DNA of 64,000 bases from Lycium barbarum (taxonomy: Eukaryota; Streptophyta; Magnoliopsida; Solanales; Solanaceae), in assembly GCF_019175385.1 (NCBI RefSeq), contig NC_083339.1, positions 82,262,120-82,326,119 on the forward strand, in the 5' to 3' direction. Both the position numbers and the translations under genes were made by a program. Positions 10,385 to 54,229 of the stretch are shown piece after piece. Position 1 is the first letter of the stretch, and each line of letters begins with the position of its first letter. The notes below the pieces were generated by a model. The model was not told where the DNA came from, ran no database searches, and worked only from the letters and a program-made list of their open reading frames with translations.

Positions 10385-10428
10385 TGTTCGTCCTAGGTAT
10401 TCTCTACAAACCGTGTCCGGTAGAGTCC

Positions 10429-10464: not shown

Positions 10465-10559
10465 GGAGGCTGCGGGGCATTTACGAGTCACTGACCTTTC
10501 CTTCTATCTTAGATCGTGCGATAGAGCCAGAGGCTAGGAAAGATTATTTCTGACACTAT

Positions 10560-11443: not shown

Positions 11444-11560
11444 GAATGCAATCATACCAGCACAAAAGCACCGGATCCCATCAGAACTCTGAAGTTAAGC
11501 GTGCTGGGGTGAGAGTAATATTAGGATAGGTAACCCCCTGGGAAGTGTACTAAGAATCCT
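11444..11560 (+). pseudogene. 5S rRNA-derived sequence inside element D
   Basis: About 117 nt align along nearly the whole of plant 5S rRNA. Shared blocks include ATCATACCAGCAC, GCACCGGATCCCATCAGAAC, AGTTAAGCGTGCT and CCCCTGGGAAGT. The 3' terminal stem strand is not conserved, so a normal 5S fold is unlikely. The internal promoter region is partly preserved, with changes in box C (GGATAGGTAACC instead of GGATGGGTGACC). It lies in sense orientation about 1.07 kb after the primer-binding site. Related copies in elements C and E show it belongs to the element and is not a genuine 5S gene. Confidence 0.88.
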
Positions 11561-26416: not shown

Positions 26417-26463
26417 AGTTCAGTCCTAGGAAGTGTCTACGAGCCGTGTCTAATAGAGTCTTT

Positions 26464-26494
26464 TTTATGGTGTGTTGCGCGCCACACTAATAAA
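26464..26494 (+). ncRNA. Leader hairpin of A, candidate RNA dimerisation site
   Basis: The arms TTTATGGTGTG and CACACTAATAAA pair with one G-U and one bulged A. The loop TTGCGCGC ends in the self-complementary hexamer GCGCGC. It starts 48 nt after the primer-binding site, and the conserved block AGATCGTGCGATAGAGC follows at 26543-26559. Confidence 0.7.
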
Positions 26495-26613
26495 TAGGAG
26501 GCTACAGGGCATTTAGGAAAAATGACCATCTTTTATCTTAAGAGATCGTGCGATAGAGCTGTATTATAAGATTATCCCCTCCCTAATTGTGCGTTATCAT
26601 TTTAGCAAAGCTG

Positions 26614-29932: not shown

Positions 29933-32391
29933 TGTTATATCCCGTATTTTGCACATTCAGATGTTTCAAGATAATCACGATAAGTTAAGGGCAAGGCTAT
30001 TATTTTCCTTTCGATTTTATTTTATTACACAAGTTGTTTATTAATGGTATGGAAATATTGAGAAAGGCTAGGGGTAAAAAGGGAAAAATTTCAAAAAGGT
30101 TCATGACAATAGCCACCATGGCCGTGTGGCTCAAGTGGGACCCACCCATGTCTTGGCCAATTAACTCAAGCCTTAAGTGGGGGCATGTGTCCACCTTATA
30201 TTTGTGAGAGCTATATATATATATATATATATAGATAGAGATGACCAAAGCAAGACATTAACACTAATCATCTTTCACAAATTCAAGAAACTTCAAGAAA
30301 GAGGGAGGAGCCATATTCGGCCATGGCTAGCCGAATTTGAGGCCATAGAAATTGATCAAGAAAAATAATTTTCTTCTAGTATTCCAACCAATTGGAAGGC
30401 CCTTATTAACGTGGAGTATTTGTTGGAGCAAGCAAAGCATTCATTTGTGCAATTACCAACCCTAGCCAAGTTGAGAAGTGAAAGGGTAAAGGTAAGATTT
30501 AATCTCCTTTTCTATGTGTTAGGGATGATTTGTGAGTGTTTTAGTATGTAGAAATTTATGAAATTCATGAAATATGTGTCTGTTGGTTGTGGCCGAATAG
30601 GGGCTATGTTGGTAAGGTGTGATAAATTGATTTTATTTAGTATTTTGATTGTTGTTGTTGTGGATTCCATGATAAAAATGAAGGTTTGATGGCTTGAAAT
30701 GAAGTTGTAATCGTTGTGGAATTGTTGAAGAAGTTGATGTGACACTAGCATGGTTTCTTATATTTGTATGAATGATGTTGTTAATGTGTGGTTGTTGGTG
30801 TAATTCATGAGCTTGGAAGCGAGGGATGTGTTGTTGTTGTTCTTATTGAGTTTGGAAGATTGTAAGTTGGGTTGTTGTGGTTAATTGGAATGTAAATGAA
30901 ATGCCGTTGAATTATGTAGAAAGGGTTGCTAATGTTAGAATGCATTTTGAATTAATTGTTGAAGTTGTTAATGTGGTTGATTGGTATTGTTGTTGATGAT
31001 TTGGCCGAGTTGAATTCTCGGGGTTGGTTGAATTTATAGGGGAGATGCTGCCCAAATTTCTGTAGGTGGATTGCTAGCTTAAAACCGGATTCCTAAATAC
31101 CTATAGCTAATGTTTAATATCTTTTGACGTTGTTGTAGATCTTGGAAAAGCCGAGACTTAAGTTCGGATTAACCTAGGAAGCGGACAAGGTATGTAAGGC
31201 TTACCCTTTCTTTCTTTTGGCATGTCCTAGAGCCAAGTAAGGTATGACACGCATCTTGGGGTAACTCTATTCTTTAATTCCGAGCTTGTTTACGATTCTT
31301 ATTCACTTCTTGACATGAGCATACTTGGTATAGTCGAGTCTATTGTTTGATTGACTAACGAGCAAAGCATAAAGAGTCCCTGTTCCTAAAAGGGTTCTAT
31401 AAGGATTAATGTCCCTAACTTTCATAGGCAGTCTCGGATTGCTCGGAAACGTTCATAGAGATTTCTGTAATGAATAACGTCCATAACTTTCTTATGCTAA
31501 CTCGGATTGACTCGAAACGTGTTTATGATCCTTCAAGTGTCGATTATTGTACTTACCAATCGAGTCTTAAAAATTGATTTATATGCATATAGTTTCTCAA
31601 TACTCTGCTCGTGCATGCCTCAATATATCTTTCACTGAGTCCCGGGCCAGGACACGTTCTCGTGCGTACTCCACTGCATTGTTCCCCGAGTCCCTCAATA
31701 GAGGGCCGGGACATGTTATATGTATATACATTCTGGAGTATGATGTGTTATGGCGTTATGATGTGTTATGGCGTTATGATGGGTTACAGAGTTATTCCCT
31801 ATTCTGGAGTATGATGTGTTATGGCGCCAACGGCGGGGTGGCGACCATGTTTTGTTCACCGAGTCCCATAAGGGGCCGGATATGACATATGACATTGACA
31901 TGCATGCTTTGTGTTTTAAAAGTAAGCATTTTGGTATTCTGGATAATGTACTTACTTTTATATTTCTTGTTCCGATTATGGCTCTGTTTACTATACTTCA
32001 TGCTTTACATACTCAGTACATATTCCGTACTGACCCCCGCTCTTCGGGGGCTGCGTTTCATGCCACGCAGGTGTATACAGATGAGTAGAGGGCATTGCTA
32101 GGAGATGTACCAGCGGGATTGGCGAGCTCCATTCCCTTCCGGAGTGTTGCCGAGTCAGAGTATTCATGTTATGGTATCTTGATTGATGTTAGAGACTTTG
32201 CTGACAGAGTCATGTGTATAGGATGTCAGTCTTGTAAGCGGCTCTGCAAGCCGACGTATCATTATGCTTTATGTTACAAATTCCATATGATTACAGATTT
32301 TACTTGACTTGAGAATGACGAAAAGAATGGTTTTGACAAATTTCTGTTATGCATTTCATTTCGTAACTTAAGAGTCCAGTGAGGTTATGAA
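29933..32391 (+). mobile_element. Element C 5' LTR, first part, split by element B
   Basis: It starts TGTTATATCCCGTATTTTGC. Landmarks are a TATA-rich promoter (30212-30232), GGGGAGATGCTGCCCAAATT (31040), tandem units containing GATGTGTTATGGCG (31740-31830) and R-region stem-loops (32013-32070). It is cut at 32391 by element B, whose ATGAA duplication is shared, and continues at 52937. The joined LTR is about 2.54 kb and is followed by a primer-binding site, so it acts as a 5' LTR. Confidence 0.8.
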
Positions 32392-35313
32392 TGTTATGTC
32401 CCGTGTTTTCGTATAATTGGAAATCGTGAAATAATTACGACTTGTGGATAATAAGGACATATTTTGATTTTAGTGAATATGACTATGTTGGTTACGGAAT
32501 TATTAATGTTAAAACCTCGGGGAAGGCCGAGAATAAATTTGGAATTTCGGAAATTAGTTTCGGGAATTACAAAACGGGACTTTTGTGAATTGGGCCAAGA
32601 ATTAGAATACAAAAATTGAAGCCCAAGAATTTTGAAGGGTGGCCGGCCTTAGCCAAGCCCAAACCCACCACTTTAATGTCATGTGCTATGCACATGACTA
32701 CTAATGGATATATATCACTATGCCACACTTAGTATTTTTCAAGAAAATAGATCAAATTCAAGAACACCACAAAAAGGAGCTCTCGGCCGTGAGCTAGAAA
32801 GGAGGAGAGAAAAAATTATTTCAAGCTTGTTGTTGATCCAAAAATCTGAATTTTTACATAATTGGGAAGTACTCAAGGCCCTCTTCAACGGGGTATAATT
32901 AGTTTGGCGCAAGAACGACGTTTGCGACAAGTCGGGGTTTCAAGGAAAGGTAAGAATTTTGCCCCTTTTATGTTATAGAATTGATGTGAATATGTTAAGG
33001 ATTGGAAGTAGATGGAGATCCCGTAATTTTGATATAAATAGAAAGTCGTGGGTGTGTGTGTATAGTGTGTATTGGCCGTGAGCCATAGAGAGGAAAATTG
33101 ATGTGAATTGATCTTGGTTAGGTTGGTATAATGTGTTGTTGTGAACCTTATGTCGTAAATGATTAATTGATGAATTGAATTGGCGTTGAAAAGTGATTTT
33201 TGGATATTATCGGAAAGTGTATACCTTCGGTATCATTATGTATATCATTGTATATTTAAGGTGCTAGAGACTTTAGACATGAATCTATAATGATGTTAAT
33301 GAATTCGGAATGAAACGACGTTAGTTAGAATGTTCGTCGTGAATTTTGATGTTTTGAAGGATTATGGAAAATAATGGATTTTTGGTGCAATTTCGTGTAT
33401 GGCTTGAATTGTAGTTGGGATGTGATTGTATAAGTTTGAATGTGGAAATGAATGCAATGATGTAGATGTAGAATTGGAGTTTTGAAAGTTTGAATGAAAG
33501 TTGCCAACTTAGATAACAAAGTAGAATTTTGAAGCTAGAATGTTTTGATTGTTGTTTGTTGACGTGTGGGCTGTTGTGATTGATGTATTTTGAGCCGAGC
33601 TAAGCCTCGGGGATGTTAGACTTATAGGGGAAATGCTGCCGAAATTTCGGTAGGCAAAAATTGGAGTTAAAGGCATTTTTAAGCCTAAGAATCTCAATTG
33701 GTAACTTTGACCATTTGCAGATTTTTGACGAAACGGGACTGGACTTTCGGGAGAGCTTACGACGTCTGTGAGGTATGTAAAGCTTCCCACTCCTTCATTT
33801 GGCATATCTTAGTGTGTTAGACGAGTATGAGAACTTCCGGAGCATTTCTGCTCCTCGAAACCCGATCCACAGAAAAGTTACTATTCATTCAATTCGATTG
33901 AAGCCTAAAGGCTCTATTTTGGCTAGAATGCCACCAATCGTCCGAAACCTATCGAAATGTGATCGGGTCACCTGGTAATGATTATGTATGACCCTTTCGG
34001 CCTGTTAATGTTCGTGAATTATGTTTGCCACCTCAATTCGACTCGAGGTGGGCCCGCTAACCCCGAGACGCCCTATTTATCCTATCGGGCTCTCCTTTGG
34101 AATAAGATTTGATATGAACCCTTTGATTTTGAAACGTTCTGCTATGGGCTATGTTTTGAATATTATGATACGCAAAGTTACGTTTTGAGCCATACGTAAT
34201 ATTTTGGAAACGTTTCGTGAAATGAAACTTTGTATCGACTAGGTATTCGATTATTTTGTACTATGAAATGACTTATGAGACTACTAAGTTTTGAAAGGCT
34301 ATTTTGAAATATGGATTGCATTTGTTTGCTCACGACTCCGCTCGTGCCTTATGATGACTTCGTTCACCGGTTCCCGGGCCGGTTTTGATTCGTGCGCCTT
34401 ATGATAATTCAGCCGTATGCTGTGTTACGGTTCCCGAGGCTTCGCCATAGGGCCGGGTTCCGTTTGGAGTTATGCTGTGATATGGCACGTGATGCGATAC
34501 GCTCACCTATGACTATGTTTGTGTTCGGGGATGTACGGAGATTTGAAACCTTCTGGTGTTATGCTGTGTGTGGCGCCAGCGTCGGAGTGGCGACCACGTT
34601 CCTAAGCGTTTGCATGATTCATTGCATTATGTATACGTATATGATTTCGATATAGATTTTGATCTACCCATTTGTACTCCACTTTGACATTTGATTTGCT
34701 TTCGGTTTTGATCCATATTTCTGTACTCCGTGCTTTACATACGCAGTACATATTTCGTACTGACCCCCTTTCTTCGGGGGCTGCGTTTTATGCCCGCAGG
34801 TGCAGATATCGGTGATCCTCCGCAGTAGGCTTCACTTCTTGCTATTCCGGAGTACTCCTATTTGATCCGGAGTCCACTTTTGGTACAGACTCTTTTTGCT
34901 TTGTATATATTCGGTATATTTGACTATTTGGGTACGGCGGGGCCCTGTCTCGCCATATGTCTTTGTTTTGAGTTCGTAGAGGCCTGTAGTCATATATGTG
35001 GGGCGAGGGTCCTATGTATGTTTGTCTGATTCCGTTTTCTGGTCTTAAGGCGGTCTGTTTGTTATGCTGGCCCCAAATGGCCCTTATGCTTATATTTGCA
35101 CTTTGGACCGGCGATGTCCATTCCGCCGCTCAGTTTGTATTTGATATGATAATTTGATTTGGCACGACCGCTTAAGACATATTTGATATCAATTATGTTC
35201 GATATGATTTCGAAAAATTATGAAAAAACGTTTGGATTTGAGAATGAATGTATGATTCGGTCTGGGTACCCAGGTAGGGTGCCAGTCGCGGCCCACGGGG
35301 CTGGGTCGTGACA
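32392..35313 (+). repeat. 5' LTR of element B (2,922 bp)
   Basis: It starts TGTTATGTCCCGTG and ends GGGTCGTGACA. Promoter landmarks are GGCCGGCC (32641), the inverted repeat GTCATGTGC/GCACATGAC (32680-32700) and a TATA tract GGATATATATC just after it. Further on are GCTGCCGAAATTTCGGTAG (33635) and the R-region stem-loops (34743-34800), where the second stem is CCCCC/GGGGG. Confidence 0.95.
32680..32715 (+). promoter_or_regulatory. E-box palindrome plus TATA promoter of LTR B
   Basis: GTCATGTGC and GCACATGAC form an inverted repeat around TAT, giving two facing CANNTG E-boxes (CATGTG and CACATG). The TATA tract follows within about 10 bp. Element E has the same arrangement on the other strand (39843-39863), and LTR P a variant. 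Binding by bHLH-type factors is inference. Confidence 0.6.
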
Positions 35314-35317
35314 AAAG

Positions 35318-35329
35318 TGGTATCAGAGC
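35318..35329 (+). other. Primer-binding site of element B
   Basis: TGGTATCAGAGC is a perfect complement of the 3' end of plant initiator tRNA-Met, 4 nt after the LTR. Confidence 0.95.
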
Positions 35330-35373
35330 GGTTTGTCCTCGGAATGTCTACAGGCCGTGTCTCGTAGAGTCTT

Positions 35374-35407
35374 GTTTATCGATGTGTTGTGCACCACATC
35401 CATAAAC
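35374..35407 (+). ncRNA. Leader hairpin of B, candidate RNA dimerisation site
   Basis: The arms GTTTATCGATGTG and CACATCCATAAAC pair over 12 of 13 positions (one C-C mismatch). The loop TTGTGCAC ends in the palindrome GTGCAC. It lies 45 nt after the primer-binding site and before gag. Hairpins at the same place in A, C, D and E differ in sequence but keep both the stem and a self-complementary hexamer in the loop. Confidence 0.75.
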
Positions 35408-35516
35408 GGGAAGCTACAGGGCATTTAGGATGTTACTTTCTTTGGAATCTTAGATCGTGCGATAGAGCTGTGCTATTAGGATAATTTTGATCTGACTCGC
35501 CTTTGTGTTTGCAGTG

Positions 35517-36917
35517 ATGCCTCCGAAGAAGGCAACGGCGGCCCAGAAGGGAAAGGCGAGGATTGGGGAGACTAGCCAGGCGCAGCGAGCTACCCGGGCT
35601 CGTGTTTATGATTTGCCTGAGGATGTGCCTCATTCTGAGGGGTCAGCTACACCCCCACTAGTACAGCCTGGAGCAGGACCTTCAGCAGCTCCAGAGGTCC
35701 GTGTATCCGCACCTGAGACTCCAGCTCCTCAGCCAGGGGCGGAGGATCGGACCCTGAGGGAGGCTGTACAGTTGCTGACTACGCTGGTAGCATGGCAGGC
35801 TCGCAGACGCGGGCGGAGGGATGATGATGACGATGACAGGCGGGACAGCCTGAGAGTTCGGGAGTTTCTGTTATGTGGCCCTCTAGAGTTCTTCGGGTCT
35901 AAGCCCGATGAGGACCCCCATGACTTTATTCGGGGGATGCGACGCTCACTGGACTTGGTCAGGGCTTCAGAGACCGAGTCAGTTGAGCTGGCTTCGCACA
36001 GGCTTCGAGATGTGGCTACCCACTGGTACGAGACTTGGGAGCTATCTAGAGGAGAGGGTGCCCCTCCAGCCACTTGGGATCAGTTTGTGACAGCATTCAC
36101 CCGCCACTTTTTGCCACCAGAGTTACGGCGGGCACGGGCTGATCGTTTCTTACGTCTGCAGCAGAGGGGTCGGAGTGTTCGCGAGTATAACCTTGAGTTT
36201 GATTCTCTGGCCCGATATGCACCGGCGGTGGTAGCAGATATGTCCGATCGGATGCACAGATATGTTATGGGATTGGACCGGTATTTGGTTGATAGCTGTA
36301 TGGCAGTGTCATTGCAGGCAGACATGGACATTGCCCGACTTCAGGCCTATGCGATGGGTATGGAGGACCGTCGCAGGTCTGATCCTGCTGGCAGAGATCG
36401 AGATAGGAGGCCGCCCAAGAGGGCTAGGTCCGCAGGTTATTCTGGAGATTCTCGAGGCGGACAGCCTCAGCAGCAGCAGTCAGACAGGCATTTTCCTTCG
36501 TCCGGCCGGAGTACTCAGTCAGGCAGCCGGAGATTCGATAGTACAGGACCGTCTGGGGCCGGTCAGAGCTCCAGAGTGGCAGGTTCGCAGGTATCCAGGG
36601 GTCCCAGCCAGGCCAGACCACCCAGACCCCATTGTCCCCATTGCGGGAAGTCTCATCCCGGGGAGTGTTATCGAGCAACTGGAGCTTGCTTTTCGTGTGG
36701 TGGTCAGGGCCACTTTATGAGAGATTGTCCTTTGGCTAGCGGTTCTGGTAGTGCTGCTCAGCAGACAGGGTCAGCCGCCGGTTCTTCTTCTGCTCCATTA
36801 GTTGCACGCCCTGGAGGGCGAGGTATTTCAGCACCGGCAGGACGCGGTCGAGGCCGCGGTGGCGCTTCAGGTTCTAGCGGTCCCTCGAACCGCATATATG
36901 CTTTGGCCAGCCGCTAG
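35517..36917 (+). CDS. gag polyprotein of element B (capsid and nucleocapsid)
   Basis: This gag would form the cytoplasmic particle in which element RNA is reverse transcribed. The start at 35517 (MPPKKATAAQKG) is preferred to an ATG four codons upstream because the same start is conserved in A and E. In order: a basic/acidic Pro-rich N-terminus; an Arg/Asp-rich patch (RRGRRDDDDDDRR); a retrotransposon-gag domain around residues 115-235 (GSKPDEDPHDFI, then HWYETWELSRGEGAP and REYNLEFDSLARYAP); a Ser/Gln/Gly-rich linker; and the knuckle CFSCGGQGHFMRDC (residues 391-404), preceded by a second Cys/His cluster, CPHCGKSHPGEC. It ends at TAG (36915-36917), a C-to-T change of a glutamine codon, since the same frame continues into protease. 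Length is about 466 residues. Confidence 0.92.
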   Translation: MPPKKATAAQKGKARIGETSQAQRATRARVYDLPEDVPHSEGSATPPLVQPGAGPSAAPEVRVSAPETPAPQPGAEDRTLREAVQLLTTLVAWQARRRGRRDDDDDDRRDSLRVREFLLCGPLEFFGSKPDEDPHDFIRGMRRSLDLVRASETESVELASHRLRDVATHWYETWELSRGEGAPPATWDQFVTAFTRHFLPPELRRARADRFLRLQQRGRSVREYNLEFDSLARYAPAVVADMSDRMHRYVMGLDRYLVDSCMAVSLQADMDIARLQAYAMGMEDRRRSDPAGRDRDRRPPKRARSAGYSGDSRGGQPQQQQSDRHFPSSGRSTQSGSRRFDSTGPSGAGQSSRVAGSQVSRGPSQARPPRPHCPHCGKSHPGECYRATGACFSCGGQGHFMRDCPLASGSGSAAQQTGSAAGSSSAPLVARPGGRGISAPAGRGRGRGGASGSSGPSNRIYALASR

Positions 36918-37081: not shown

Positions 37082-40000
37082 TGTCACGACCCAACCCCAT
37101 GGGCCGCGACTGGTGCCCTACAGGGACACCCCAGACAAACTCACACCCATATCATCGAAATCAGACTCGTCCAAACACAACATACGATATTCAGACTCAA
37201 CATCGTAATCAGACATCTACCGGATACTGATCCTAAGCAGTCGCCCGTACAGATCAAACAAATCGCAAATCAGAAAAGAGGCGGAATGTACTTCGCCAAA
37301 TTTTCACACACACACATCCGAAGGGTGGCGGAATGTACATCGCCCCCACAAGCATACACATACATACAAAATCAGAGGCCGACTTGGCCATAGTAGTGTA
37401 CGGGCCGCTTAAGAACACAAAACAGGCTCACATACGAACACACCGGACCCACGACCCACAAATCTGACTACAGGCCTCTAGACAAAACAGAACATAAGAC
37501 ATATGAACATAGGACGGGACAGGGCCCCGCCGTACCCACTCATCCAAGTATACAGAATACAGACACAACAAAAGATATGTACCAAAAGTAGGCTCCGGAT
37601 CAAGGGGAGCTCTCCAACACAGCAGACTGAGTAGCCTAAATCGGAGGACCACCCAGACGAGCTTCTGTACCTGCGGGCATGAAACACAGCCCCCGAAGAC
37701 ACGGGGGTCAGTACGGGAGAAGTACTGAGTATGTAAAGCAGAGGGTACAGAAATCACAAACACAGCTGGAGTCAGAAAGAACAAACACACCGACATCGTA
37801 GACAAAGCAAACCTGTGCGGGAGGCGAACGTACAAAATGCAAATCAAATCATGTATAGGGTTTAGGAACGTGGTCACCCCCCGACGCTGGTGCCACTACA
37901 CATCATAACTCCAGAAGTTTTCAAATATCCGTACAGTCTCCAGACACATCATATCACACACACATCATATCATCAAAACATATCAAATGCCATATCACAT
38001 CATAACTCCATAAACGGTAACCGGCCCTATGGCGAGGCCTCGGAAACCGTAACACATCATAACTCCCGAATATATTATAGCGCGCACGATCACAAAGTCG
38101 GCCCGGGTACCGACGAACGAAGTCATAGCAGACAGCACGAACAGAGTAGTGCAGAAACCATATGCATATTAAAATAATTTGTCAGACTCAACATATAATT
38201 TACGTACAAGTATATACTGACGCCAGAAGGCTCGGAATAGGAATCAGATTGATCAAAGTTTGCGTATATAAGTTACGAAGTGCCAAACGGCTAAATTCTC
38301 AAGAAAAACTGTTCATACGTCATTTTCCGAAAATCTCACATCGTTCAAAGTACAGAACGTACATTAATGGCATAGGAAGTTTCAAACACATCCTTGGGTC
38401 ATAAACAGAAGGTTGCGAATCGTAACAGACACAAGCGAATCAAACAAACCGAATAAGGGGAGCCTCGGGGCTCGCGGGCCCACCTCGGGTCAAATTGAGG
38501 CGGCGGACACAAATCGCAGATTTTTGGTTCCATAGAGTCATTTGCAAAAGTTTCGAAGAGTTTCGGACTCAACAGCACAAGTTATGGAGGTACGAGCGTT
38601 CTTTTACCCAAATGGGACCAAAAGGTTTCAATCGCGCTGAATGAATAGTGCTCGAACTTGAACCTCGATTTCCAAGAGCAGAGTTATTCCCGAGATTCCG
38701 AAATTTACCTAGTGGGTCTAGGACATGCCAAAAGAATGAGAGGTAGGCTTTACATACCTGGTTGGCGCCTTACGCTCCTCAAATCGCAATTCCCGTTTCG
38801 TCCAGAAACTGCAGATGGTCACTTTTACCAGTTACTATTCATGAGAATTAACATTTTAGTCTTTGGGCTATATTTGGCTACCGAAATTTCGGCAGCACTT
38901 CCCCTATAAATCTAACACCCCCGAGACTTAGCTCGGCTCAAAATACAACGACAACAACAACCCCAAACATCATTAAACCATACAAACCACAATCATACTA
39001 CATTAACTTCAAAATTTTACTTTAATACATGAGTTGGCAAATTCTTGATTCAACTTCAAAATTCCAACTCTATTTCCACATTAGTCCATTCATTCACTCA
39101 TTCTCAATTATTCAAACACACTACATACAAGTTCCAAATCACATACAAACATTCCCAAAGTTCACTACTTTCCAATTTTCATTCAAAACACCAAAAGTTA
39201 CGACGAACGTTCTAACTTGCGTCGTTTCATTCCAAATTCGTTATCATCAACCATAAATCTTATTTAAAGTCTTTAGTGTCATAAATATACTATGATATAC
39301 ACAAATATACCAAATGTATACGCTTTCCGATAACGTCCGAAATTATTTTCCAACACCAAATCAATTCTCCAAACATTCATTTACGTTATAAAGGTTACAA
39401 CGACACCTCAAACGACTAAACGGAATTAAATTCACATGGTCTTGCACTACATACAAGCCACGGCCAAACACACTCTTTTTGCACACACATGCCAAGCACA
39501 AACACAACACCATTCCAAAATCTTCATGCTAATTCAATCACTAACACATATGTACCCATTTCATAACATAAAAACATTGAAATCTTACCTTAATCTTAAG
39601 ATCCCGATTTGCCGCAAACGAGCACCTTACGCCAAACTAATTGTACCCCGTTGAAGAGGGGCTCGAGTACTTCATAATACGTTAAGGACAAGGATTTTTA
39701 GATCACCACAAAGCTAGCAATTTTTTTTTTTTTTTTTCTTTCCCTATACCCTTCGGCCGAGAGCCATTTTTTTCTTGTTCTTGAATTTTTTTCTTTTGTT
39801 CTAGATAATTATCCATTACAATGTGATATATATCCACTTATAGGTCATGTGCATAGCACATGACCTTGATGGAATGGGCTTGGGCTTGCCCCCCCTTTTG
39901 GCCGGCCACTTTCCTTCCTTTGGGCCTCAATTTTTGTATTCCATTTTCTTAGCCCAATGCATAAAATGTCCCGTTTTGTAATTCCCGAAACTAATTTCTA

Positions 40001-40157
40001 AAATTCCAAATTCACCCTCGGCCTTCCCCGAGGTCTTGACATTAATAGTTTCATAATCAACACGCGCATAGCGACTTAAACCAAAATTTCTTCCTCAATA
40101 CACACAAGTCTTATTTATCTCTTGATTTCCCGTTATACGAAAATACGGGACATAACA
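37082..40157 (-). repeat. 3' LTR of element E (3,076 bp)
   Basis: In element sense it starts TGTTATGTCCCGTATTTTCG at 40157 and ends GGGTCGTGACA at 37082. It contains GGCCGGCC (39900-39907), the E-box inverted repeat (39843-39863), a long T tract on the plus strand (about 39720-39737), CTGCCGAAATTTCGGTAG (38880) and R-region stem-loops (37670-37731). Confidence 0.95.
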
Positions 40158-40170
40158 TTCTCCCCCCCTT
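40158..40170 (-). other. Polypurine tract of element E
   Basis: On the minus strand AAGGGGGGGAGAA directly precedes the 3' LTR, as in element B. Just before it is the conserved ATTCGAGGACGAATG motif (plus-strand CATTCGTCCTCGAAT). Confidence 0.9.
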
Positions 40171-40474
40171 AAAAACATTCGTCCTCGAATGTTGAATCGA
40201 ACTCATGGGTGTCGTACTACTCCGGGAGGGTTCTCTTGATAGTTGTCCTTTATTGATTTCTCCGACATGTCTTCTTTACCAATACTAGGGTAGATTTTTC
40301 ACATCACTGACTCAAATACCTTCATAATACATTTTCTCATACTCTACGTAATCACCGAACTCTGCACTATATTCTTGTAAGGGACGGACGCTTTCCAGAT
40401 ATCATCGCCAATATCATCTTCTTTTCACACTCCTGAGTTTCCTTACCACATCGTCGTAATCTCACTTTACTTCA

Positions 40475-40960
40475 TATCAGACACTTCATGCCCAACAGAC
40501 TCAGAACTAAAACCGAACGGATTCATAATCGGAAGCAGACATACTCAACGATGGCGGACGGATTCGTAGTCAACATCGAAGGTACGGAAGCATATCAGAC
40601 ACATCTGAGATCGGAGTCAGACGTACAAAGGAGTATCGGACGAATTCGTAAGCAGAATCAAACACACGAAGGTATACCAAACAGATTCACAATCGAAGTC
40701 AGACGTACGGACTCATATCGGACAGATCCGAAATCAGAATCAAATATACAGGATTGTTTCATACAAAGTCGTGACCAGTCAAACCGAAGTGTATCGAACA
40801 CACACGCGGTCAAAATCAAACGCACCGAAGCATATCAGATGAATTTATATCCAGAGTCAGACCCACAGAGGTGTGCCAGACAGAAACGGATTCAGAATCA
40901 AACACACAAAAGGTTCATCGAACAGGAACGTAGTCGAACTCAAAAATATAGAGGCGTACT
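40475..40960 (-). repeat. Degenerate 42-bp tandem repeat in the 3' region of element E
   Basis: On the plus strand about a dozen units of 41-42 bp share the pattern GAATCAAACACACGAAGG / CGGACGAATTCG with drift. Translated antisense to the element, they give a 172-residue open frame (40488-41006) made of 14-residue repeats rich in Arg, Gln, Ser and Thr. The open frame is most simply explained by a stop-free unit whose length is a multiple of three. No known protein repeat is recognised. It occupies the place where pol would be. Confidence 0.7.
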
Positions 40961-41340
40961 AGGTAGAGCCTCATCGGCATCGGAAGTGCAGAAGCACTAT
41001 GGATAGAATATCAATTTGGGATTAAATCATTTATATTAAGGCTCCAATAATTCATGAGAATTTCCCTTTATTTGCAACTCACTCACCAAGTCGTCACACA
41101 ATTCGCCTTGCGTCTTACGTATCGACTTCCTTCAAAAATTTCACTTACTCACACTGCTTATCTTTTATTTATCACTACATTAGTTTCCGGGGCTCGGCTC
41201 TTAGCCCTCATGGCCCTGAATGGAAATCATACACACACACATACACATACACATACACATACACACGTTTACTCATACCTTACTGGCGAACATCTCTGAC
41301 TGTTATTCAAATTCGTTCAATTTCCCAAGCGGTGGCATAC

Positions 41341-41396
41341 CCTTTTCCTTTTTGCCCATTTAGTCCGCCTCGTTCCGCGCGGCTCTCGCGAGGGCA
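41341..41396 (-). other. Conserved block downstream of the 5S-like segment in E
   Basis: On the minus strand CGCGCGGAACGAGGCGGACT, then AAATGGGCAAAAAGGAAAA, align with 11645-11690 in D and 54141-54190 in C. In all three the block starts 83-85 bp after the 5S-derived sequence. No coding function is apparent. Confidence 0.65.
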
Positions 41397-41480
41397 CTAA
41401 TTATTCCACACACATTCTATTTATTCTTGGTTACCCCAAATTCTCATTTACATTAATCATACTTACACTTGTGCAAAATT

Positions 41481-41555
41481 TTGCATTACTTCCCAGGGGG
41501 TCACCCATCCCTGAATTGCTCTGGCTTGAGCATGCTTAACCCCGAATCTTTTACG
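41481..41555 (-). pseudogene. Partial 5S rRNA-derived sequence in element E
   Basis: On the minus strand GGTTAAGCATGCTC, then GGGATGGGTGACCCCCTGGG and AAGT, match the middle and 3' part of plant 5S rRNA, covering the internal control region. The 5' third is not recognisable. It lies about 300 bp after the end of gag, in sense with the element. Box C is identical to that of the copy in element C. Confidence 0.7.
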
Positions 41556-41858
41556 TATTTTGACGCGTTAGGGTTGATATAATTTCGTCAATTGCCCCGC
41601 ACTACCTTTGTCACGCAATTTTAGGCCAAACGGGGTCTTAGCAAATTTTTCGGAAATTTTTCGTAGCGGGTCCCCCTTTGTCCCAAAGAAGTCGTTTGCT
41701 TTTCTGGCTATGTGGTCTATCGTTCTAGCCTTCCAACTCCCATATATTTTCCTCACACACGTACAGATAACTGCCTCAGATATTTTCATTAATTCAGATT
41801 CTTACCCTACCTTTACTGACACACACAAAAGAATATCGCATAATACTGAGGTACAAAC

Positions 41859-43331
41859 CTACCATTGCACATATTCATTAAACAAAAGGGTTAGTAATAT
41901 ACCTGGGTCTGTATCTGGGGGTGCCTCTGGGTCCCGATGACCAGTCAAAGCGTAGATGCGGTTCGAGGGACCGCTAGAATCTGAACCCCCACCACGGCCT
42001 CTACCGCGGCCCGCTGGTGCTGGCATACCTCGCCCTGTCGAGCGCGTGGCCGAAGGGGTAGATGACGAACCCGCAACAGATCTCATCGGCGGTGCTGCGC
42101 TACCGGAACCGCCTGCCCACGGACAATCCCGCATGATATGGCCCTGGCGGCCGCAAGCAAAACAGGCCCCTGTGGCTCTGAAGCACTCACCTGGGTGCGA
42201 TCTTCCGCAATACGAACACTGGGGTATGGGTGGCCTAGACTGACTGGGACCCCTGCTCGACTGAGGACCTGGGGCTCTGGAACTCTGGTCTGCCCTGGAC
42301 GGTCCTGCTCCATCAAACCTCTTACCAACAGACTGTGCGTCCCGGCCTGACGGAGGAAAGTACCCGCTGGACTGATACTGAGGCTGCCCGCTCCGAGAAT
42401 CTCCAGAATATCCCGCTGATCTGGCCCTCTTGGGCCGTCTCCCATCATACTCTCGGCTGGGCCGATCTGCTCGGTGCCGGTTCTCCATCCCCTGGGCGTA
42501 GGCCTGTAGACGGGCAATGTCCATATCTGTCTGCAATGACACCGCCATACACCCGTCAATCAAGTAACGATCCAGCCCCATAACATATCTATGCATCCGA
42601 TCTGTCATATCTGCCACCACGGCAGGGGCGTACCGGGCCAGGGAATCAAACTCCAAATTATATTCACGGACGCTCCGACCCCTCTGCTGCAGATGCAAAA
42701 ACCGATCAGCTCGCTCCCGTCGTAACTCTGGGGGCAGGAAGTGGCGGGTGAAAGCAGTCACAAACTGATCCCACATAGCTGGAGGAGCACCCTCACCCCG
42801 GGATAGCTCCCAAGTCTCATACCAATGCGCGGCAACATCCCGAAGCCTATGCGAAGCTAGCTCCACCGACTCGGTCTCTGAAGCCCTGACCAAGTCTAAT
42901 GCACGCCGCATCCCCCGAATGAAGTCATGGGGGTCCTCATCGGGCTTAGACCCGAAAAACTCTGGAGGGCCGCATAACAAGAACTCCCGAACTCTCAGGC
43001 TTTCCCGCCTGTCCTCATCATCATCGTCTCTCCGCCCGCGCCTGCGAGCCTGGCCGGCTACAATCGTAGTCAACAACTGTACAGCCTCCCTCAGGGTCCT
43101 ATCCTCCGCCCCTGGCTGAGAAGCTGGCGTCTCAGGAGCGGGTACACGGACCTCTGGAGCTGCTGAAGGTCCCGCTCCCGGCTGTACTAATGGGGGTGTA
43201 GCAGACCCCTCAGAATGAGGTGTAACCTCAGGCAAATCATAAACACGAGCCCGAGTAGCCCGTTGTGCCTGACTGGTCTCTCCCACCTTCGCCTTGCCCT
43301 TCTGGGCCGCCGTTGCCTTCTTCGGAGGCAT
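41859..43331 (-). CDS. Intact gag of element E
   Basis: This minus-strand frame of 490 residues starts at the conserved MPPKKATAAQKG; an in-frame ATG four codons earlier is less likely. It is very similar to the B gag throughout: Pro/Glu-rich N-terminus, Arg/Asp patch (RRGRRDDDDEDRR), retrotransposon-gag domain around residues 115-240 (FFGSKPDEDPHDFI; HWYETWELSRGEGAP), basic linker, the cluster CSYCGRSHPGEC and the knuckle CFACGRQGHIMRDC (42123-42164). No stop interrupts it, unlike the gags of A and B. After the PDTDPGILL segment the match to B ends abruptly near 41895, ten residues before a stop, marking the junction where protease and pol were replaced by non-coding DNA. It is probably translatable. 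Confidence 0.93.
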   Translation of the reverse strand: MPPKKATAAQKGKAKVGETSQAQRATRARVYDLPEVTPHSEGSATPPLVQPGAGPSAAPEVRVPAPETPASQPGAEDRTLREAVQLLTTIVAGQARRRGRRDDDDEDRRESLRVREFLLCGPPEFFGSKPDEDPHDFIRGMRRALDLVRASETESVELASHRLRDVAAHWYETWELSRGEGAPPAMWDQFVTAFTRHFLPPELRRERADRFLHLQQRGRSVREYNLEFDSLARYAPAVVADMTDRMHRYVMGLDRYLIDGCMAVSLQTDMDIARLQAYAQGMENRHRADRPSREYDGRRPKRARSAGYSGDSRSGQPQYQSSGYFPPSGRDAQSVGKRFDGAGPSRADQSSRAPGPQSSRGPSQSRPPIPQCSYCGRSHPGECFRATGACFACGRQGHIMRDCPWAGGSGSAAPPMRSVAGSSSTPSATRSTGRGMPAPAGRGRGRGGGSDSSGPSNRIYALTGHRDPEAPPDTDPGILLTLLFNEYVQW

Positions 43332-43447
43332 CGCTGCAAACACAACAACGGGTCAGATCAGAATGATCCTAATAACACAGCTCTATCGCACGATCTAAGA
43401 TTCCAAAGAAAGGGCAACACAACATCCTAGATGTCCTGTAGCTTCCT

Positions 43448-43481
43448 GTTTATAGATGTGGTGCACAACACATCGATAAAC
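43448..43481 (-). ncRNA. Leader hairpin of E, candidate RNA dimerisation site
   Basis: On the minus strand the arms GTTTATCGATGTG and CACATCTATAAAC enclose the loop TTGTGCAC, which ends in the palindrome GTGCAC. It is nearly identical to the B hairpin and lies 44 nt after the primer-binding site. Confidence 0.72.
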
Positions 43482-43525
43482 AAGACTCTACTAGACACGG
43501 CCTGTAGACATTCCGAGGACAAACC

Positions 43526-43537
43526 GCTCTGATACCA
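43526..43537 (-). other. Primer-binding site of element E
   Basis: The minus strand reads TGGTATCAGAGC, a perfect initiator tRNA-Met complement, a few bases from the LTR end at 43541. Confidence 0.93.
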
Positions 43538-43540
43538 CTT

Positions 43541-46500
43541 TGTCACGACCCAACCCCATGGGCCGCGACTGGTGCCCTACAGGGACACCCCAGACAAACT
43601 CACACCCATATCATCGAAATCAGACTCGTCCAAACACAACATACGATATTCAGACTCAACATCGTAATCAGACATCTACCGGATACTGATCCTAAGCAGT
43701 CGCCCGTACAGATCAAACAAATCGCAAATCAGAAAAGAGGCGGAATGTACTTCGCCAAATTTTCACACACACACATCCGAAGGGTGGCGGAATGTACATC
43801 GCCCCCACAAGCATACACATACATACAAAATCAGAGGCCGACTTGGCCATAGTAGTGTACGGGCCGCTTAAGAACACAAAACAGGCTCACATACGAACAC
43901 ACCGGACCCACGACCCACAAATCTGACTACAGGCCTCTAGACAAAACAGAACATAAGACATATGAACATAGGACGGGACAGGGCCCCGCCGTACCCACTC
44001 ATCCAAGTATACAGAATACAGACACAACAAAAGATATGTACCAAAAGTAGGCTCCGGATCAAGGGGAGCTCTCCAACACAGCAGACTGAGTAGCCTAAAT
44101 CGGAGGACCACCCAGACGAGCTTCTGTACCTGCGGGCATGAAACACAGCCCCCGAAGACACGGGGGTCAGTACGGGAGAAGTACTGAGTATGTAAAGCAG
44201 AGGGTACAGAAATCACAAACACAGCTGGAGTCAGAAAGAACAAACACACCGACATCGTAGACAAAGCAAACCTGTGCGGGAGGCGAACGTACAAAATGCA
44301 AATCAAATCATGTATAGGGTTTAGGAACGTGGTCACCCCCCGACGCTGGTGCCACTACACATCATAACTCCAGAAGTTTTCAAATCTCCGTACAGTCTCC
44401 AGACACATCATATCACACACACATCATATCATCAAAACATATCAAATGCCATATCACATCATAACTCCATAAACGGTAACCGGCCCTATGGCGAGGCCTC
44501 GGAAACCGTAACACATCATAACTCCCGAATATATTATAGCGCGCACGATCACAAAGTCGGCCCGGGTACCGACGAACGAAGTCATAGCAGACAGCACGAA
44601 CAGAGTAGTGCAGAAACCATATGCATATCAAAATAATTTGTCAGACTCAACATATAATTTACGTACAAGTATATACTGACGCCAGAAGGCTCGGAATAGG
44701 AATCAGATTGATCAAAGTTTGCGTATATAAGTTACGAAGTGCCAAACGGCTAAATTCTCAAGAAAAACTGTTCATACGTCATTTTCCGAAAATCTCACAT
44801 CGTTCAAAGTACAGAACGTACATTAATGGCATAGGAAGTTTCAAACACATCCTTGGGTCATAAATAGAAGGTTGCGAATCGTAACAGACACAAGCGAATC
44901 AAACAAACCGAATAAGGGGAGCCTCGGGGCTCGCGGGCCCACCTCGGGTCAAATTGAGGCGGCGGACACAAATCGCAGATTTTTGGTTCCATAGAGTCAT
45001 TTGCAAAAGTTTCGAAGAGTTTCGGACTCAACAGCACAAGTTATGGAGGTACGAGCGTTCTTTTACCCAAATGGGACCAAAAGGTTTCAATCGCGCTGAA
45101 TGAATAGTGCTCGAACTTGAACCTTGATTTCCAAGAGCAGAGTTATTCCCGAGATTCCGAAATTTACCTAGTGGGTCTAGGACATGCCAAAAGAATGAGA
45201 GGTAGGCTTTACATACCTGGTTGGCGCCTTACGCTCCTCAAATCGCAATTCCCGTTTCGTCCAGAAACTGCAGATGGTCACTTTTACCAGTTACTATTCA
45301 TGAGAATTAACATTTTAGTCTTTGGGCTATATTTGGCTACCGAAATTTCGGCAGCACTTCCCCTATAAATCTAACACCCCCGAGACTTAGCTCGGCTCAA
45401 AATACAACGACAACAACAACCCCAAACATCATTAAACCATACAAACCACAATCATACTACATTAACTTCAAAATTTTACTTTAATACATGAGTTGGCAAA
45501 TTCTTGATTCAACTTCAAAATTCCAACTCTATTTCCACATTAGTCCATTCATTCACTCATTCTCAATTATTCAAACACACTACATACAAGTTCCAAATCA
45601 CATACAAACATTCCCAAAGTTCACTACTTTCCAATTTTCATTCAAAACACCAAAAGTTACGACGAACGTTCTAACTTGCGTCGTTTCATTCCAAATTCGT
45701 TATCATCAACCATAAATCTTATTTAAAGTCTTTAGTGTCATAAATATACTATGATATACACAAATATACCAAATGTATACGCTTTCCGATAACGTCCGAA
45801 ATTATTTTCCAACACCAAATCAATTCTCCAAACATTCATTTACGTTATAAAGGTTACAACGACACCTCAAACGACTAAACGGAATTAAATTCACATGGTC
45901 TTGCACTACATACAAGCCACGGCCAAACACACTCTTTTTGCACACACATGCCAAGCACAAACACAACACCATTCCAAAATCTTCATGCTAATTCAATCAC
46001 TAACACATATGTACCCATTTCATAACATAAAAACATTGAAATCTTACCTTAATCTTAAGATCCCGATTTGCCGCAAACGAGCACCTTACGCCAAACTAAT
46101 TGTACCCCGTTGAAGAGGGGCTCGAGTACTTCATAATACGTTAAGGACAAGGATTTTTAGATCACCACAAAGCTAGCAATTTTTTTTTTTTTTTCTTTCC
46201 CTATACCCTTCGGCCGAGAGCCATTTTTTTCTTGTTCTTGAATTTTTTTCTTTTGTTCTAGATAATTATCCATTACAATGTGATATATATCCACTTATAG
46301 GTCATGTGCATAGCACATGACCTTGATGGAATGGGCTTGGGCTTGCCCCCCCTTTTGGCCGGCCACTTTCCTTCCTTTGGGCCTCAATTTTTGTATTCCA
46401 TTTTCTTAGCCCAATGCATAAAATGTCCCGTTTTGTAATTCCCGAAACTAATTTCTAAAATTCCAAATTCACCCTCGGCCTTCCCCGAGGTCTTGACATT

Positions 46501-46614
46501 AATAGTTTCATAATCAACACGAGCATAGCGACTTAAACCAAAATTTCTTCCTCAATACACACAAGTCTTATTTATCTCTTGATTTCCCGTTATACGAAAA
46601 TACGGGACATAACA
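43541..46614 (-). repeat. 5' LTR of element E (3,074 bp)
   Basis: It is nearly identical to 37082-40157. Differences seen include single bases near 44385, 44630, 44866, 45124 and 46522 and a T tract two bases shorter near 46180. It drives the leader and gag on the minus strand. A 149-residue open frame within it (43887-44336), repeated in the other LTR, spans the structured R/U5 region and is not credible as a gene. Confidence 0.95.
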
Positions 46615-49889: not shown

Positions 49890-50000
49890 TAAAATGAACT
49901 ATGTATGTCATTATTAAAAAGGGACACTCCTGCCTTGATCATAAGACCTTATAAGATTAATTTAACATTCGGGGACGAATGTTCATAAGGGGGGGGAGAA
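49890..50000 (+). other. 3' untranslated region and polypurine tract of element B
   Basis: CATTCGGGGACGAATG (about 49968) is followed by a purine tract AAGGGGGGGGAGAA ending at 50000, next to the 3' LTR. Between the pol stop and the motif nothing else is recognised. Confidence 0.9.
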
Positions 50001-52931
50001 TGTTATGTCCCGTGTTTTCGTATAATTGGAAATCGTGAAATAATTACGACTTGTGGATAATAAGGACATATTTTGATTTTAGTGAATATGACTATGTTGG
50101 TTACGGAATTATTAATGTTAAAACCTCGGAGAAGGCCGAGAATAAATTTGGAATTTCGGAAATTAGTTTCGGGAATTACAAAACGGGACTTTTGTGAATT
50201 GGGCCAAGAATTAGAATACAAAAATTGAAGCCCAAGAATTTTGAAGGGTGGCCGGCCTTAGCCAAGCCCAAACCCACCACTTTAATGTCATGTGCTATGC
50301 ACATGACTACTAATGGATATATATCACTATGCCACACTTAGTATTTTTCAAGAAAATAGATCAAATTCAAGAACACCACAAAAAGGAGCTCTCGGCCGTG
50401 AGCTAGAAAGGAGGAGAGAAAAAATTATTTCAAGCTTGTTGTTGATCCAAAAATCTGAATTTTTACATAATTGGGAAGTACTCAAGGCCCTCTTCAACGG
50501 GGTATAATTAGTTTGGCGCAAGAACGACGTTTGCGACAAGTCGGGGTTTCAAGGAAAGGTAAGAATTTTGCCCCTTTTATGTTATAGAATTGATGTGAAT
50601 ATGTTAAGGATTGGAAGTAGATGGAGATCCCGTAATTTTGATATAAATAGAAAGTCGTGGGTGTGTGTGTATAGTGTGTATTGGCCGTGAGCCATAGAGA
50701 GGAAAATTGATGTGAATTGATCTTGGTTAGGTTGGTATAATGTGTTGTTGTGACCCTTATGTCGTAAATGATTAATTGATGAATGGAATTGCTGTTGAAA
50801 AGTGATTTTTGGATATTATCGGAAAGTGTATACCTTCGGTATCATTATGTATATCATTGTATATTTAAGGTGCTAGAGACTTTAGACATGAATCTATAAT
50901 GATGTTAATGAATTCGGAATGAAACGACGTTAGTTAGAATGTTCGTCTTGAATTTTGATGTTTTGAAGGATTATGGAAAATAATGGATTTTTGGTGCAAT
51001 TTCGTGTATGGCTTGAATTGTAGTTGGGATGTGATTGTATAAGTTTGAATGTGGAAATGAATGCAATGATGTAGATGTAGAATTGGAGTTTTGAAAGTTT
51101 GAATGAAAGTTGCCAACTTAGATAACAAAGTAGAATTTTGAAGCTAGAATGGTTTGATTGTTGTTTGTGTTGTTTGTTGACGTGTGGGCTGTTGTGATTG
51201 ATGTATTTTGAGCCGAGCTAAGCCTCGGGGATGTTAGACTTATAGGGGAAATGCTGCCGAAATTTCGGTAGGCAAAAATTGGAGTTAAAGGCATTCTTAA
51301 GCCTAAGAATCTCAATTGGTAACTTTAACCATTTGCAGATTTTTGACGAAACGGGACTGGACTTTCGGGAGAGCTTACGACGTCTGTGAGGTATGTAAAG
51401 CTTCCCACTCCTTCATTTGGCATATCTTAGTGTGTTAGACGAGTATGAGAACTTCCGGAGCATTTCTGCTCCTCGAAACCCGATCCACAGAAACGTTACT
51501 ATTCATTCAATTCGATTGAAGCCTAAAGGCTCTATTTTGGCTAGAATGCCACCAATCGTCCGAAACCTATCGAAATGTGATCGGGTCACCTGGTAATGAT
51601 TATGTCTGACCCTTTCGGCCTGTTAATGTTCGTGAATTATGTTTGCCACCTCAATTCGACTCGAGGTGGGCCCGCTAACCCCGAGATGCCCTATTTGTCC
51701 TATCGGGCTCTCCTTTGGAATAAGATTTGATATGAACCCTTTGATTTTGAAACGTTCTGCTATGGGCTATGTTTTGAATATTATGATACGCAAAGTTACG
51801 TTTTGAGCCATACGTAATATTTTGGAAACGTTTCGTGAAATGAAACTTTGTATCGACTAGGTATTCGATTATTTTGTACTATGAAATGACTTATGAGACT
51901 ACTAAGTTTTGAAAGGCTATTTTGAAATATGGATTGCATTTGTTTGCTCACGACTCCGCTCGTGCCTTATGATGACTTCGTTCACCGGTTCCCGGGCCGG
52001 TTTTGATTCGTGCGCCTTATGATAATTCGGCCGTATGCTGTGTTACGGTTCCCGAGGCTTCGCCATAGGGTCGGGTTCCGTTTGGAGTTATGCTGTGATA
52101 TGGCACGTGATGCGATACGCTCACCTATGACTATGTTTGTGTTCGGGGATGTACGGAGATTTGAAACCTTCTGGTGTTTTGCTGTGTGTGGCGCCAGCGT
52201 CGGAGTGGCGACCACGTTCCTAAGCGTTTGCATGATTCATTGCATTATGTATACGTATATGATTTCGATATAGATTTTGATCTACCCATTTGTACTCCAC
52301 TTTGACATTTGATTTGCTTTCGGTTTTGATCCATATTTCTGTACTCCGTGCTTTACATACGCAGTACATATTTCGTACTGACCCCCTTTCTTCGGGGGCT
52401 GCGTTTTATGCCCGCAGGTGCAGATATCGGTGATCCTCCGCAGTAGGCTTCACTTCTTGCTATTCCGGAGTACTCCTATTTGATCCGGAGTCCACTTTTG
52501 GTACAGACTCTTTTTGCTTTGTATATATTCGGTATATTTGACTATTTGGGTACGGCGGGGCCCTGTCTCGCCATATGTCTTTGTTTTGAGTTCGTAGAGG
52601 CCTGTAGTCATATATGTGGGGCGAGGGTCCTATGTATGTTTGTCTGATTCCGTTTTCTGGTCTTAAGGCGGTCTGTTTGTTATGCTGGCCCCAAATGGCC
52701 CTTATGCTTATATTTGCACTTTGGACCGGCGATGTCCATTCCGCCGCTCAGTTTGTATTTGATATGATATTTTGATTTGGCACGACCGCTTAAGACATAT
52801 TTGATATCAATTATGTTCGATATGATTTCGAAAAATTATGAAAAAAAGTTTGGATTTGAGAATGAATGTGTGATTCGGTCTGGGTACCCAGGTAGGGTGC
52901 CAGTCGCGGCCCACGGGGCTGGGTCGTGACA
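50001..52931 (+). repeat. 3' LTR of element B (2,931 bp)
   Basis: Same organisation as the left copy: GGCCGGCC at 50251, E-box inverted repeat and TATA near 50290-50325, R-region stem-loops at 52362-52418. It differs by roughly 18-20 substitutions by eye and a 9-bp insertion near 51170 (an extra GTGTTGTTT-type repeat). Confidence 0.94.
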
Positions 52932-52936
52932 ATGAA

Positions 52937-53034: not shown

Positions 53035-53079
53035 AGTTCGTCCTAGGGGTTGTCTGCAAAGTCGTGTCCAGTAGAGTCC

Positions 53080-53115
53080 TGTTTATGGGTGTGAAGCCGG
53101 CCACACTTATAAACA
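53080..53115 (+). ncRNA. Leader hairpin of C, candidate RNA dimerisation site
   Basis: The arms TGTTTATGGGTGTG and CACACTTATAAACA pair over all 14 positions with two G-U pairs. The loop AAGCCGGC ends in the palindrome GCCGGC. It lies 45 nt after the primer-binding site. Confidence 0.72.
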
Positions 53116-53943
53116 GGAGGCTGCAGGGCATCTAGGGATCATTGACCTTCTTTCTGTCTTAGATCGTGCGATAGAGCCAAGTCATAGGAAATGAGATTCC
53201 TTATACTAACCTTTGATTTAAGTAGAAGCACAGTATCGACGGGAGAAGGTGAGTGATGATATGGAAAGTCACAGGGGTAAGTTTTGATATTTTCATTCTT
53301 TTACCTGAAATTGGGAGCCCTGGGTGGCTGGGACATGTCGTATACATATGTATGCCCTGTAAGGCATTGTTGGTATTTGCTGCGTGTAGATTTTGGATAG
53401 TAAGAAACATAAAGGAGAATCTGTCAGAATATTTTTTTAAAATCAGGTCGTTTAGTTAAGTGCACCTAACAGTAAGGAACGTGGAAAGGAAACATCGTAA
53501 ATAGACAATAAGTGGGATGCGTTGTTTTAGAGGAGTTATGGACTTGTCATGGCATGAAGAATAATTGCGAGAAAGACAATTAGCAGTCCGAAGGATTTAA
53601 ATGGGTTACATTCGAGGTTTAGTAGGAGCAAGGTCTGTTGGGGGATTCAGGGAAAGTCGACAATGAGTTCTGCTGTAGATTATTAGATAAGAGTGGCGAG
53701 CGGAAGTCCAAAGAGGTGGATAATCGAGTTCTGCTGTAGACAATGAGGTGTGTTCGCTACCATCGGGAATCTAGAAATCTAGGATGAAAGGTAGTCATAC
53801 ACATAGGTGAAAGGTGAATATTGAGGATTGAAAAGGTTAAAATAGTAATTATTAAAGGAGGGAGATGTGTTACGAGAATGTTTTGGAATCTGTTAAGACT
53901 TCAACTTGTTCCAGATTATGCGGTGAAGGTCATGCGGTGAGGT

Positions 53944-54060
53944 GGATGCGATTATATCAGCATCAATGCACCGGATTTCATCGGAGTTTCAAGGTTAAGC
54001 ATGCTACGGTGAGAGAAATATTAGGATGGGTGACCCCCTGGGAAGTGTACTAAAAGTCCT
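53944..54060 (+). pseudogene. 5S rRNA-derived sequence inside element C
   Basis: GGATGCGATTATATCAGCAT, AATGCACCGGATTTCATC, GGTTAAGCATGCT and GGATGGGTGACCCCCTGGGA follow plant 5S rRNA in order over about 117 nt. The box C region is preserved better than in D. The end (AAGTGTACTAA) is shared with D and differs from real 5S, showing common descent of the two copies. Confidence 0.87.
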
Positions 54061-54229
54061 ATAGATTTAGACATAAGAGGCGAATGAGAAGCTAGAGTAG
54101 CCTAAGGGAAATGAGAGTATACGAAATGGTTGGAAACCTTAAGAGGTCGCGTAAGACGAGGCAGACTAGACCGGTGAAGAGAAAGAAAGTTCATCCCAGC
54201 TCTGGAATTAGGATGAGTTTGAACAGCGT

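Follow-up and report, generated by a model that had tools for sequence, protein, structure and literature searches.

Hairpin domain in the leaders of five nested elements

The stretch analysed here (the window) covers 64,000 nt of Lycium barbarum NC_083339.1 and consists, with the joints as we read them, of nested Ty3/gypsy long terminal repeat (LTR) elements. Five of them, designated A to E, carry in their leaders a hairpin downstream of the primer-binding site (PBS), which a preliminary description of the sequence had put forward as a candidate kissing-loop site of RNA dimerisation. This hairpin is the subject of the present report. The features of the leaders and of elements B and E are as follows.

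32389-35314, plus strand: 5' LTR of element B, pairing with the LTR at 49998-52932 (99.0% identity)
35318-35329, plus strand: PBS of B, TGGTATCAGAGC
35357-35424, plus strand: hairpin domain of B (basal, middle and apical helix)
35387-35394, plus strand: loop of B, TT+GTGCAC (palindrome 35389-35394)
35452-35468, plus strand: 17-nt leader motif of B, AGATCGTGCGATAGAGC, downstream of the hairpin
35517-36914, plus strand: gag frame of B, with Retrotrans_gag, Ty3_capsid and zinc-knuckle matches
26446-26512, plus strand: domain of A, loop TT+GCGCGC at 26475-26482
53064-53131, plus strand: domain of C, loop AA+GCCGGC at 53094-53101
10413-10480, plus strand: domain of D, loop AA+GCTGGC at 10443-10450, self-pairing with two G-U
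43431-43498, minus strand: domain of E, loop TT+GTGCAC at 43468-43461
43526-43537, minus strand: PBS of E
43331-41946, minus strand: gag of E, an open frame
37082-46614, minus strand: whole element E, inside the pol of B, with LTRs 37082-40157 and 43541-46614 (99.8% identical)

The sequences, coordinates and loops first described for the five hairpins were all confirmed. The PBS TGGTATCAGAGC, which we take to be of the initiator-methionine tRNA type, has one mismatch in A and one in D. The distance from PBS to hairpin, put at 44-48 nt in the preliminary description, came to 47 (A), 44 (B), 45 (C), 44 (D) and 44 nt (E) counted from just past the 12-nt PBS. Compensatory stem changes had also been claimed for these elements; this held for a single pair (26/43), altered on both sides, and for no further stem pair, while the loop adds two doubly changed pairs, 34/37 and 35/36. 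Since B and E are closely related (82% identity over 1.6 kb), the five elements represent only about four loop states.

The hairpin forms the apical part of a larger domain of 67-68 nt, which starts 27-29 nt past the PBS in all five elements and comprises 27 paired columns in three helices and an 8-nt loop. The basal helix (GTGTCY ... GGRCAT) has 6 pairs and is followed by a 1x1 mismatch. The middle helix (GTAG ... CTRC) has 4 pairs, one of them broken in A, and is followed by a 2x2 AG/RG loop; the apical stem of up to 17 pairs closes the 8-nt loop. In RNAfold predictions the hairpin was continuous with both lower helices in four elements, B, C, D and E (z between -5.1 and -6.4, equalled by 0/200 shuffles). 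Element A gave the same shape more weakly (z -1.5, 17/200 shuffles as good). The domain of B ends 92 nt before the gag ATG, and this location between the PBS and the gag start codon is that of a retroviral-type dimer-initiation site (DIS).

The motif AGATCGTGCGATAGAGC is letter-for-letter the same across all five leaders, and the approximately 170 nt from the PBS to this motif are 76-83% identical among the family pairs listed. The LTRs of B and D showed no match of at least 150 nt at E 1e-10. Conservation of the leader while these LTRs are unmatched means that the leader is under constraint as a whole. Applied to the window and to contigs L005 and L006 (see below), a covariance model built for the domain found matches at the five places only, scoring 82-92 bits in sense and 29-53 bits in antisense orientation (E-values up to 10).

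Loop words and covariation across the genome

Further leaders were collected from the 1.67-Gb genome with a pair of anchors that flank the hairpin at a spacing of 110-140 nt, TATCAGAGC and GATCGTGCGATAGAGC, the second being the last 16 nt of AGATCGTGCGATAGAGC. The anchor pair gave 9,608 + 9,606 = 19,214 matches and the reversed control 0 and 0; 18 further matches had a spacing of 141-171. Our loop census covers the first 100 listed leaders, 98 of them distinct, all from contig 1 and not a random sample. The loop hexamer was a perfect palindrome in 84 of the 100 (GTGCAC 57, GCGCGC 22, GCCGGC 5), and 12 of the 16 remaining hexamers are one letter off one of these three words. TT precedes the hexamer in 73 loops. 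The leader just right of the window (L137) also has GTGCAC.

A comparison of the loop hexamers with controls had been proposed as a check, and self-complementarity proved to be well above control. In all, 104 blocks of six columns had 80 or more ungapped rows; that of the loop was 85% palindromic, with three words, and the runner-up blocks reached 35% and 26%, each with basically one fixed word. When whole leaders were folded, 91 of 100 showed an unpaired octamer closed off by the stem. The z of the hairpin piece had a median of -4.9, was below -3 in 85 of 100 leaders and was -0.1 at worst. A loop in which a palindrome of 6 nt or more lies exposed, as most of these leaders are predicted to have, is also a feature of a retroviral-type DIS.

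Stem covariation, the second proposed check, was measured in an alignment of 105 rows (the 100 anchored leaders and the five window elements), 87 of them distinct. Pairing cells amounted to 94.5% vs. 92.5% after shuffling, and doubly changed cells to 55 vs. 21.1, neither value being reached in 500 shuffles. Pairs with double changes numbered 8 vs. 4.9 (21/500 as high), further pair types 36 vs. 32.5 (18/500 as high), and slid controls paired in 35-54% of cells. Stem and loop pairs thus covary above the shuffled and slid controls; related rows inflate such tests, so that events on the tree matter. In the 87 distinct rows, the loop pair 34/37 was UA in 45, CG in 37, UG in 2 and unpaired in 3, and the pair 24/45 was unpaired in 43 and gapped in 22.

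A second alignment held 17 chosen representatives, some from one family, with the indel of the GGGCCC type (described below) placed at the basal helix, which may lose pairs in the lower arm. Here 91.8% of cells pair vs. 84.4% when shuffled (0/500 as high), and 11 pairs are doubly changed vs. 6.5 (4/500 as high). The loop pair 2/5 shows all four Watson-Crick pairs (CG 5, GC 5, UA 5, AU 1, unpaired 1). Stem pairs 10/59, 21/48, 25/44, 26/43 and 28/41 are doubly changed in three rows each, partly within one family. Retention of self-complementarity despite changes of letters is what a retroviral-type DIS displays; the events on the tree are few.

Related lineages and surrounding sequences

The pol protein P0066 of a related branch led to 44 listed genome places, 11 at 66-68% and 33 at 63-64% identity; the leader was read for three places in the first group, and an upstream piece was fetched for 23 in the second. 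A PBS was present in 19 of these 23 pieces and missing from 4. The loops of the 19 leaders were GGGCCC in 8, GTGCAC in 4, GGCGCC in 3, AGACGTCT in 3 and TGATCA in 1. The GGGCCC type has a 7-nt loop, A+GGGCCC, on the stem TTTATATGTGTG/CACACATATAAA, whose letters are changed in L151 and L155. The GGCGCC type has TA+GGCGCC on the stem GTTCATGGGTATG/CATACTTATGAAC, with one mismatch in L157. As palindromic-loop cases the GTGCAC, GGGCCC and GGCGCC types are clean, and the AGACGTCT and TGATCA lineages are ambiguous. When 20 of the 40 listed copies of the GGCGCC family were scored, three of them (L173, L177 and L178) by eye, 18 were palindromic, one had GGCGAC and one GGCGCT. Ranked by self-pairing energy among the 64 palindromic hexamers, GGGCCC is 1st, GCCGGC 2nd, GGCGCC 3rd (level with the 2nd), GCGCGC 5th and GUGCAC 21st.

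Seven listed GGCGCC leader copies lie at G000 C4:138757954-138770509, mostly 888 bp or multiples of it apart. They may be a tandem array formed from a leader piece.

Among viral contigs, the PBS pattern had 0 matches and gag relatives numbered 0; the 17-nt motif occurred in 4 stretches, none with a PBS-like leader, as chance predicts. Two candidates were rejected: the viral contig L006, known from an integrase alignment, starts inside integrase, and the Robertmurraya contig L005 (3173 bases) was read as plant contamination. The domain model found nothing in either. Plant-like retrotransposon sequence stands in bacterial records, namely L005 and the protein P0014 (named Corynebacterium), presumably as contamination.

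Of the domains expected in a Ty3/gypsy chromovirus, Gag, zinc knuckle, RNase H and integrase were matched in the window, and the chromodomain match at the integrase end, with 23.0 bits, stayed below the Pfam cut-off of 25.1. Named gag relatives came exclusively from Lycium, Solanum or Nicotiana. The pol of B is interrupted by E. With the queries used, no pol match was found in the 3.4-kb internal region of E, which appears to be a gag-only element nested within the pol of B. Element A contains a gag remnant. Element D, whose LTR pair is 87.6% identical, matched neither gag nor pol. In element C, which has a leader, gag was not matched and the 5' LTR appears to have been truncated by B; a pol-end remnant at 54242-54459 may belong to C or to another element.

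Two 5S rRNA-like sequences, both spanning the Rfam model, lie on the plus strand about 1 kb downstream of the leaders of D (11444-11560, 64.6 bits) and C (53947-54062, 36.9 bits, just under the cut-off of 38). At gathering cut-offs, the Rfam scan of the window returned one 5S rRNA and nothing else. In these elements the 5S-like sequence is internal, unlike Cassandra elements, in which, in the part of the source available, the 5S lies in the LTR (PMC10886601). Such a layout may reflect capture of a 5S gene by a long non-autonomous element.

Interpretation of the hairpin

Palindromic loops, covarying stem and loop pairs, and other palindromes at the same place in the related pol class support, at the level of sequence, the kissing-loop reading of the preliminary description. 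The sequences show that an RNA domain downstream of the PBS and ahead of gag is conserved, that its apical loop is exposed in the majority of the predicted folds, and that the letters of the loop vary from family to family yet remain mostly self-complementary. A changing but self-complementary loop, on a stem that is conserved and stands between the PBS and a gag encoding a zinc knuckle (as in both B and E), is best explained by pairing of RNA copies. We consider it probable that the hairpin is a kissing-loop DIS of genomic RNA, acting in the manner of HIV-1 SL1, in many plant LTR elements of the Ty3/gypsy type. Two genomic RNAs would meet by loop-to-loop pairing of their palindromes, and Gag with its zinc knuckle would then select or mature the dimer for packaging. 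Being cis-acting, such a signal would let elements without gag or pol use the particles of others. Elements C and D retain 27/27 domain pairs despite having no gag match, as expected of a cis-acting signal.

Alternatively, the domain could be a structured element serving Gag binding or packaging (psi-like), export or translation, with a protein recognising the loop and the palindrome being incidental. Conservation of the whole domain and the downstream 17-nt motif, not of the loop alone, agrees with this, as do the internal loops and the position, which are compatible with a packaging function; one site can also serve both dimerisation and packaging. A protein reader, however, would preserve letters, and we see five clear loop words in which both partners of a pair have changed. 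This alternative is unlikely.

Shared ancestry combined with chance would make the loop words the products of one drifting ancestral palindrome, in families too few to show selection. Switches on the tree are few, the short words are GC-rich, and the feature was picked after being seen. Drift would nevertheless yield mostly non-palindromes, since by our own arithmetic only 9 of 135 two-letter hexamer changes stay Watson-Crick self-complementary, and GGGCCC and GGCGCC were found in leaders fetched by pol similarity, blind to the hairpin. Dinucleotide shuffles of 12 representative leaders gave a hairpin of at least 10 bp with a Watson-Crick-palindromic loop in 18/2400 cases. Seven of the 12 real leaders have one (A, B, C, E, L137, L142 and L146), D has one with wobble, and 4 have none (L138, L140, L141 and L161). 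First-order Markov sequence yielded palindromic loops in 4.6% of comparable hairpins (14.35 of 312.9 per 64-kb strand); the window-wide scan for such hairpins was swamped by simple repeats and served for this control. We regard ancestry and chance as a very improbable explanation.

An intramolecular pseudoknot, in which the loop pairs elsewhere in the leader, could for example find its partner in the downstream motif, as by eye the GCAC of GTGCAC complements the GTGC of the motif, and the longest match is 4 pairs in the three GTGCAC leaders tested. Against it, a partner more than 20 nt away offers at most 4 Watson-Crick pairs in 7/7 leaders tested (3-4 nt in each), and the GCCGGC and GGGCCC loops are palindromic though their partner is only 3 nt; a pseudoknot has very little probability. 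A DNA-level dyad (protein-binding site or cruciform) or a small-RNA precursor hairpin, suggested by a long inverted repeat present in both DNA strands, is hardly credible, given the higher model scores in sense than in antisense, a palindrome that sits off-centre in the loop and is useless to a stem dyad, and an excess of G-U over A-C stem cells (384 vs. 24 in the 87 distinct rows, pair 24/45 omitted), pointing to selection on the sense RNA.

Several observations weigh against a DIS. As distinct states, the strand signal is weaker (G-U 21, A-C 13, other mismatches 32). The best tree, built without the loop, has 5 palindrome-type switches; it omits 17 non-palindromic rows of the 105, and 62 of its 98 inner branches are open. 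A test on independent pairs had 3 supported pairs, too few for significance. Sixteen of the 100 leaders have no Watson-Crick palindrome, one of these pairing via wobbles, and the non-palindromic leaders are farther from their nearest neighbour (0.049 vs. 0.036, p 0.038), which fits weakly with decay of dead copies. Purines flank the palindrome in HIV-1, and TT is the prevailing doublet here. The fold of the GG+AGACGTCT type pairs some letters of the palindrome, so that just 4 nt stay in the loop; for the single CC+TGATCA+C leader an open loop was predicted from the 64-nt domain in isolation and not from the whole leader. Finally, the 66-68% pol class has no such hairpin in 3/3 leaders (L138-L140; 11 copies listed).

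These three leaders hold the self-complementary words GCATATGC (3/3) and CATGTACATG (2/3), which might serve another dimer site.

In HIV-1, whose RNA copies pair loop to loop ahead of packaging, the SL1 hairpin lies between the PBS and the gag start; among yeast elements with proposed dimerisation palindromes, Ty1 belongs to another superfamily, Ty1/copia. The comparisons that follow refer to the available parts of the published descriptions. The Lycium hairpin resembles SL1 in its position between PBS and gag, an internal loop in the stem and a GC-rich 6-nt loop palindrome (PMC5874298, PMC4588261). GCGCGC and GUGCAC, two of the three main loop palindromes of the HIV-1 DIS, are common to both (PMC5874298). 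GCCGGC, GGGCCC and GGCGCC are unlike HIV-1, the Lycium loop mostly has 8 nt (2+6, with no 3' flanking base) whereas that of HIV-1 has 9 nt, and the base doublet before the palindrome differs from the purines that matter in HIV-1. In yeast Ty3, likewise a Ty3/gypsy element and compared here by description, the 6-nt palindrome CUGCAG (PAL6 of the DS) is apical in a short hairpin and required for dimerisation in vitro, and a kissing loop was proposed; PAL6 lies at nt 391-396, within palindromes of the GAG frame, whereas the Lycium site is in the untranslated leader (PMC11381356). Palindromes in the 5' part of the RNA were also proposed to initiate dimerisation of Ty1 (PMC5454406, PMC4974528), which differs by a nearby pseudoknot (PMC4974528). 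For barley BARE, a Copia element and thus of the other superfamily, cis-acting signals for both dimerisation and packaging have been claimed, with conservation in its parasitic partner, so that a dimerisation signal in plants as such is not new (PMC3735527; compared by description). In the full-text literature, among the matches listed and with few subscription papers covered, we found no report of plant Ty3/gypsy elements with a hairpin for dimerisation, and a search on Lycium and Tekay found no match.

It is conceivable, if rather doubtful, that the loop word acts as a partner-choice code. Each family would have its own palindrome, RNAs including those of gag-less hitchhikers would favour their own kind in shared particles, and a new family could arise with the help of a palindrome switch, since its RNAs would be packaged together, and would recombine, less often with those of the parent family.

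LTR elements make up as much as 90% of some plant genomes, according to the part available of a December 2025 review of the LTR life cycle, whose main text does not contain 'dimeri' (PMC12786077). RNA pairing and selection in plant LTR elements looks little studied. If the site is real, a single plant genome offers 19,214 anchored leaders from which the rules of kissing loops could be read, and it would provide a cis-acting signal for matching autonomous with non-autonomous elements.
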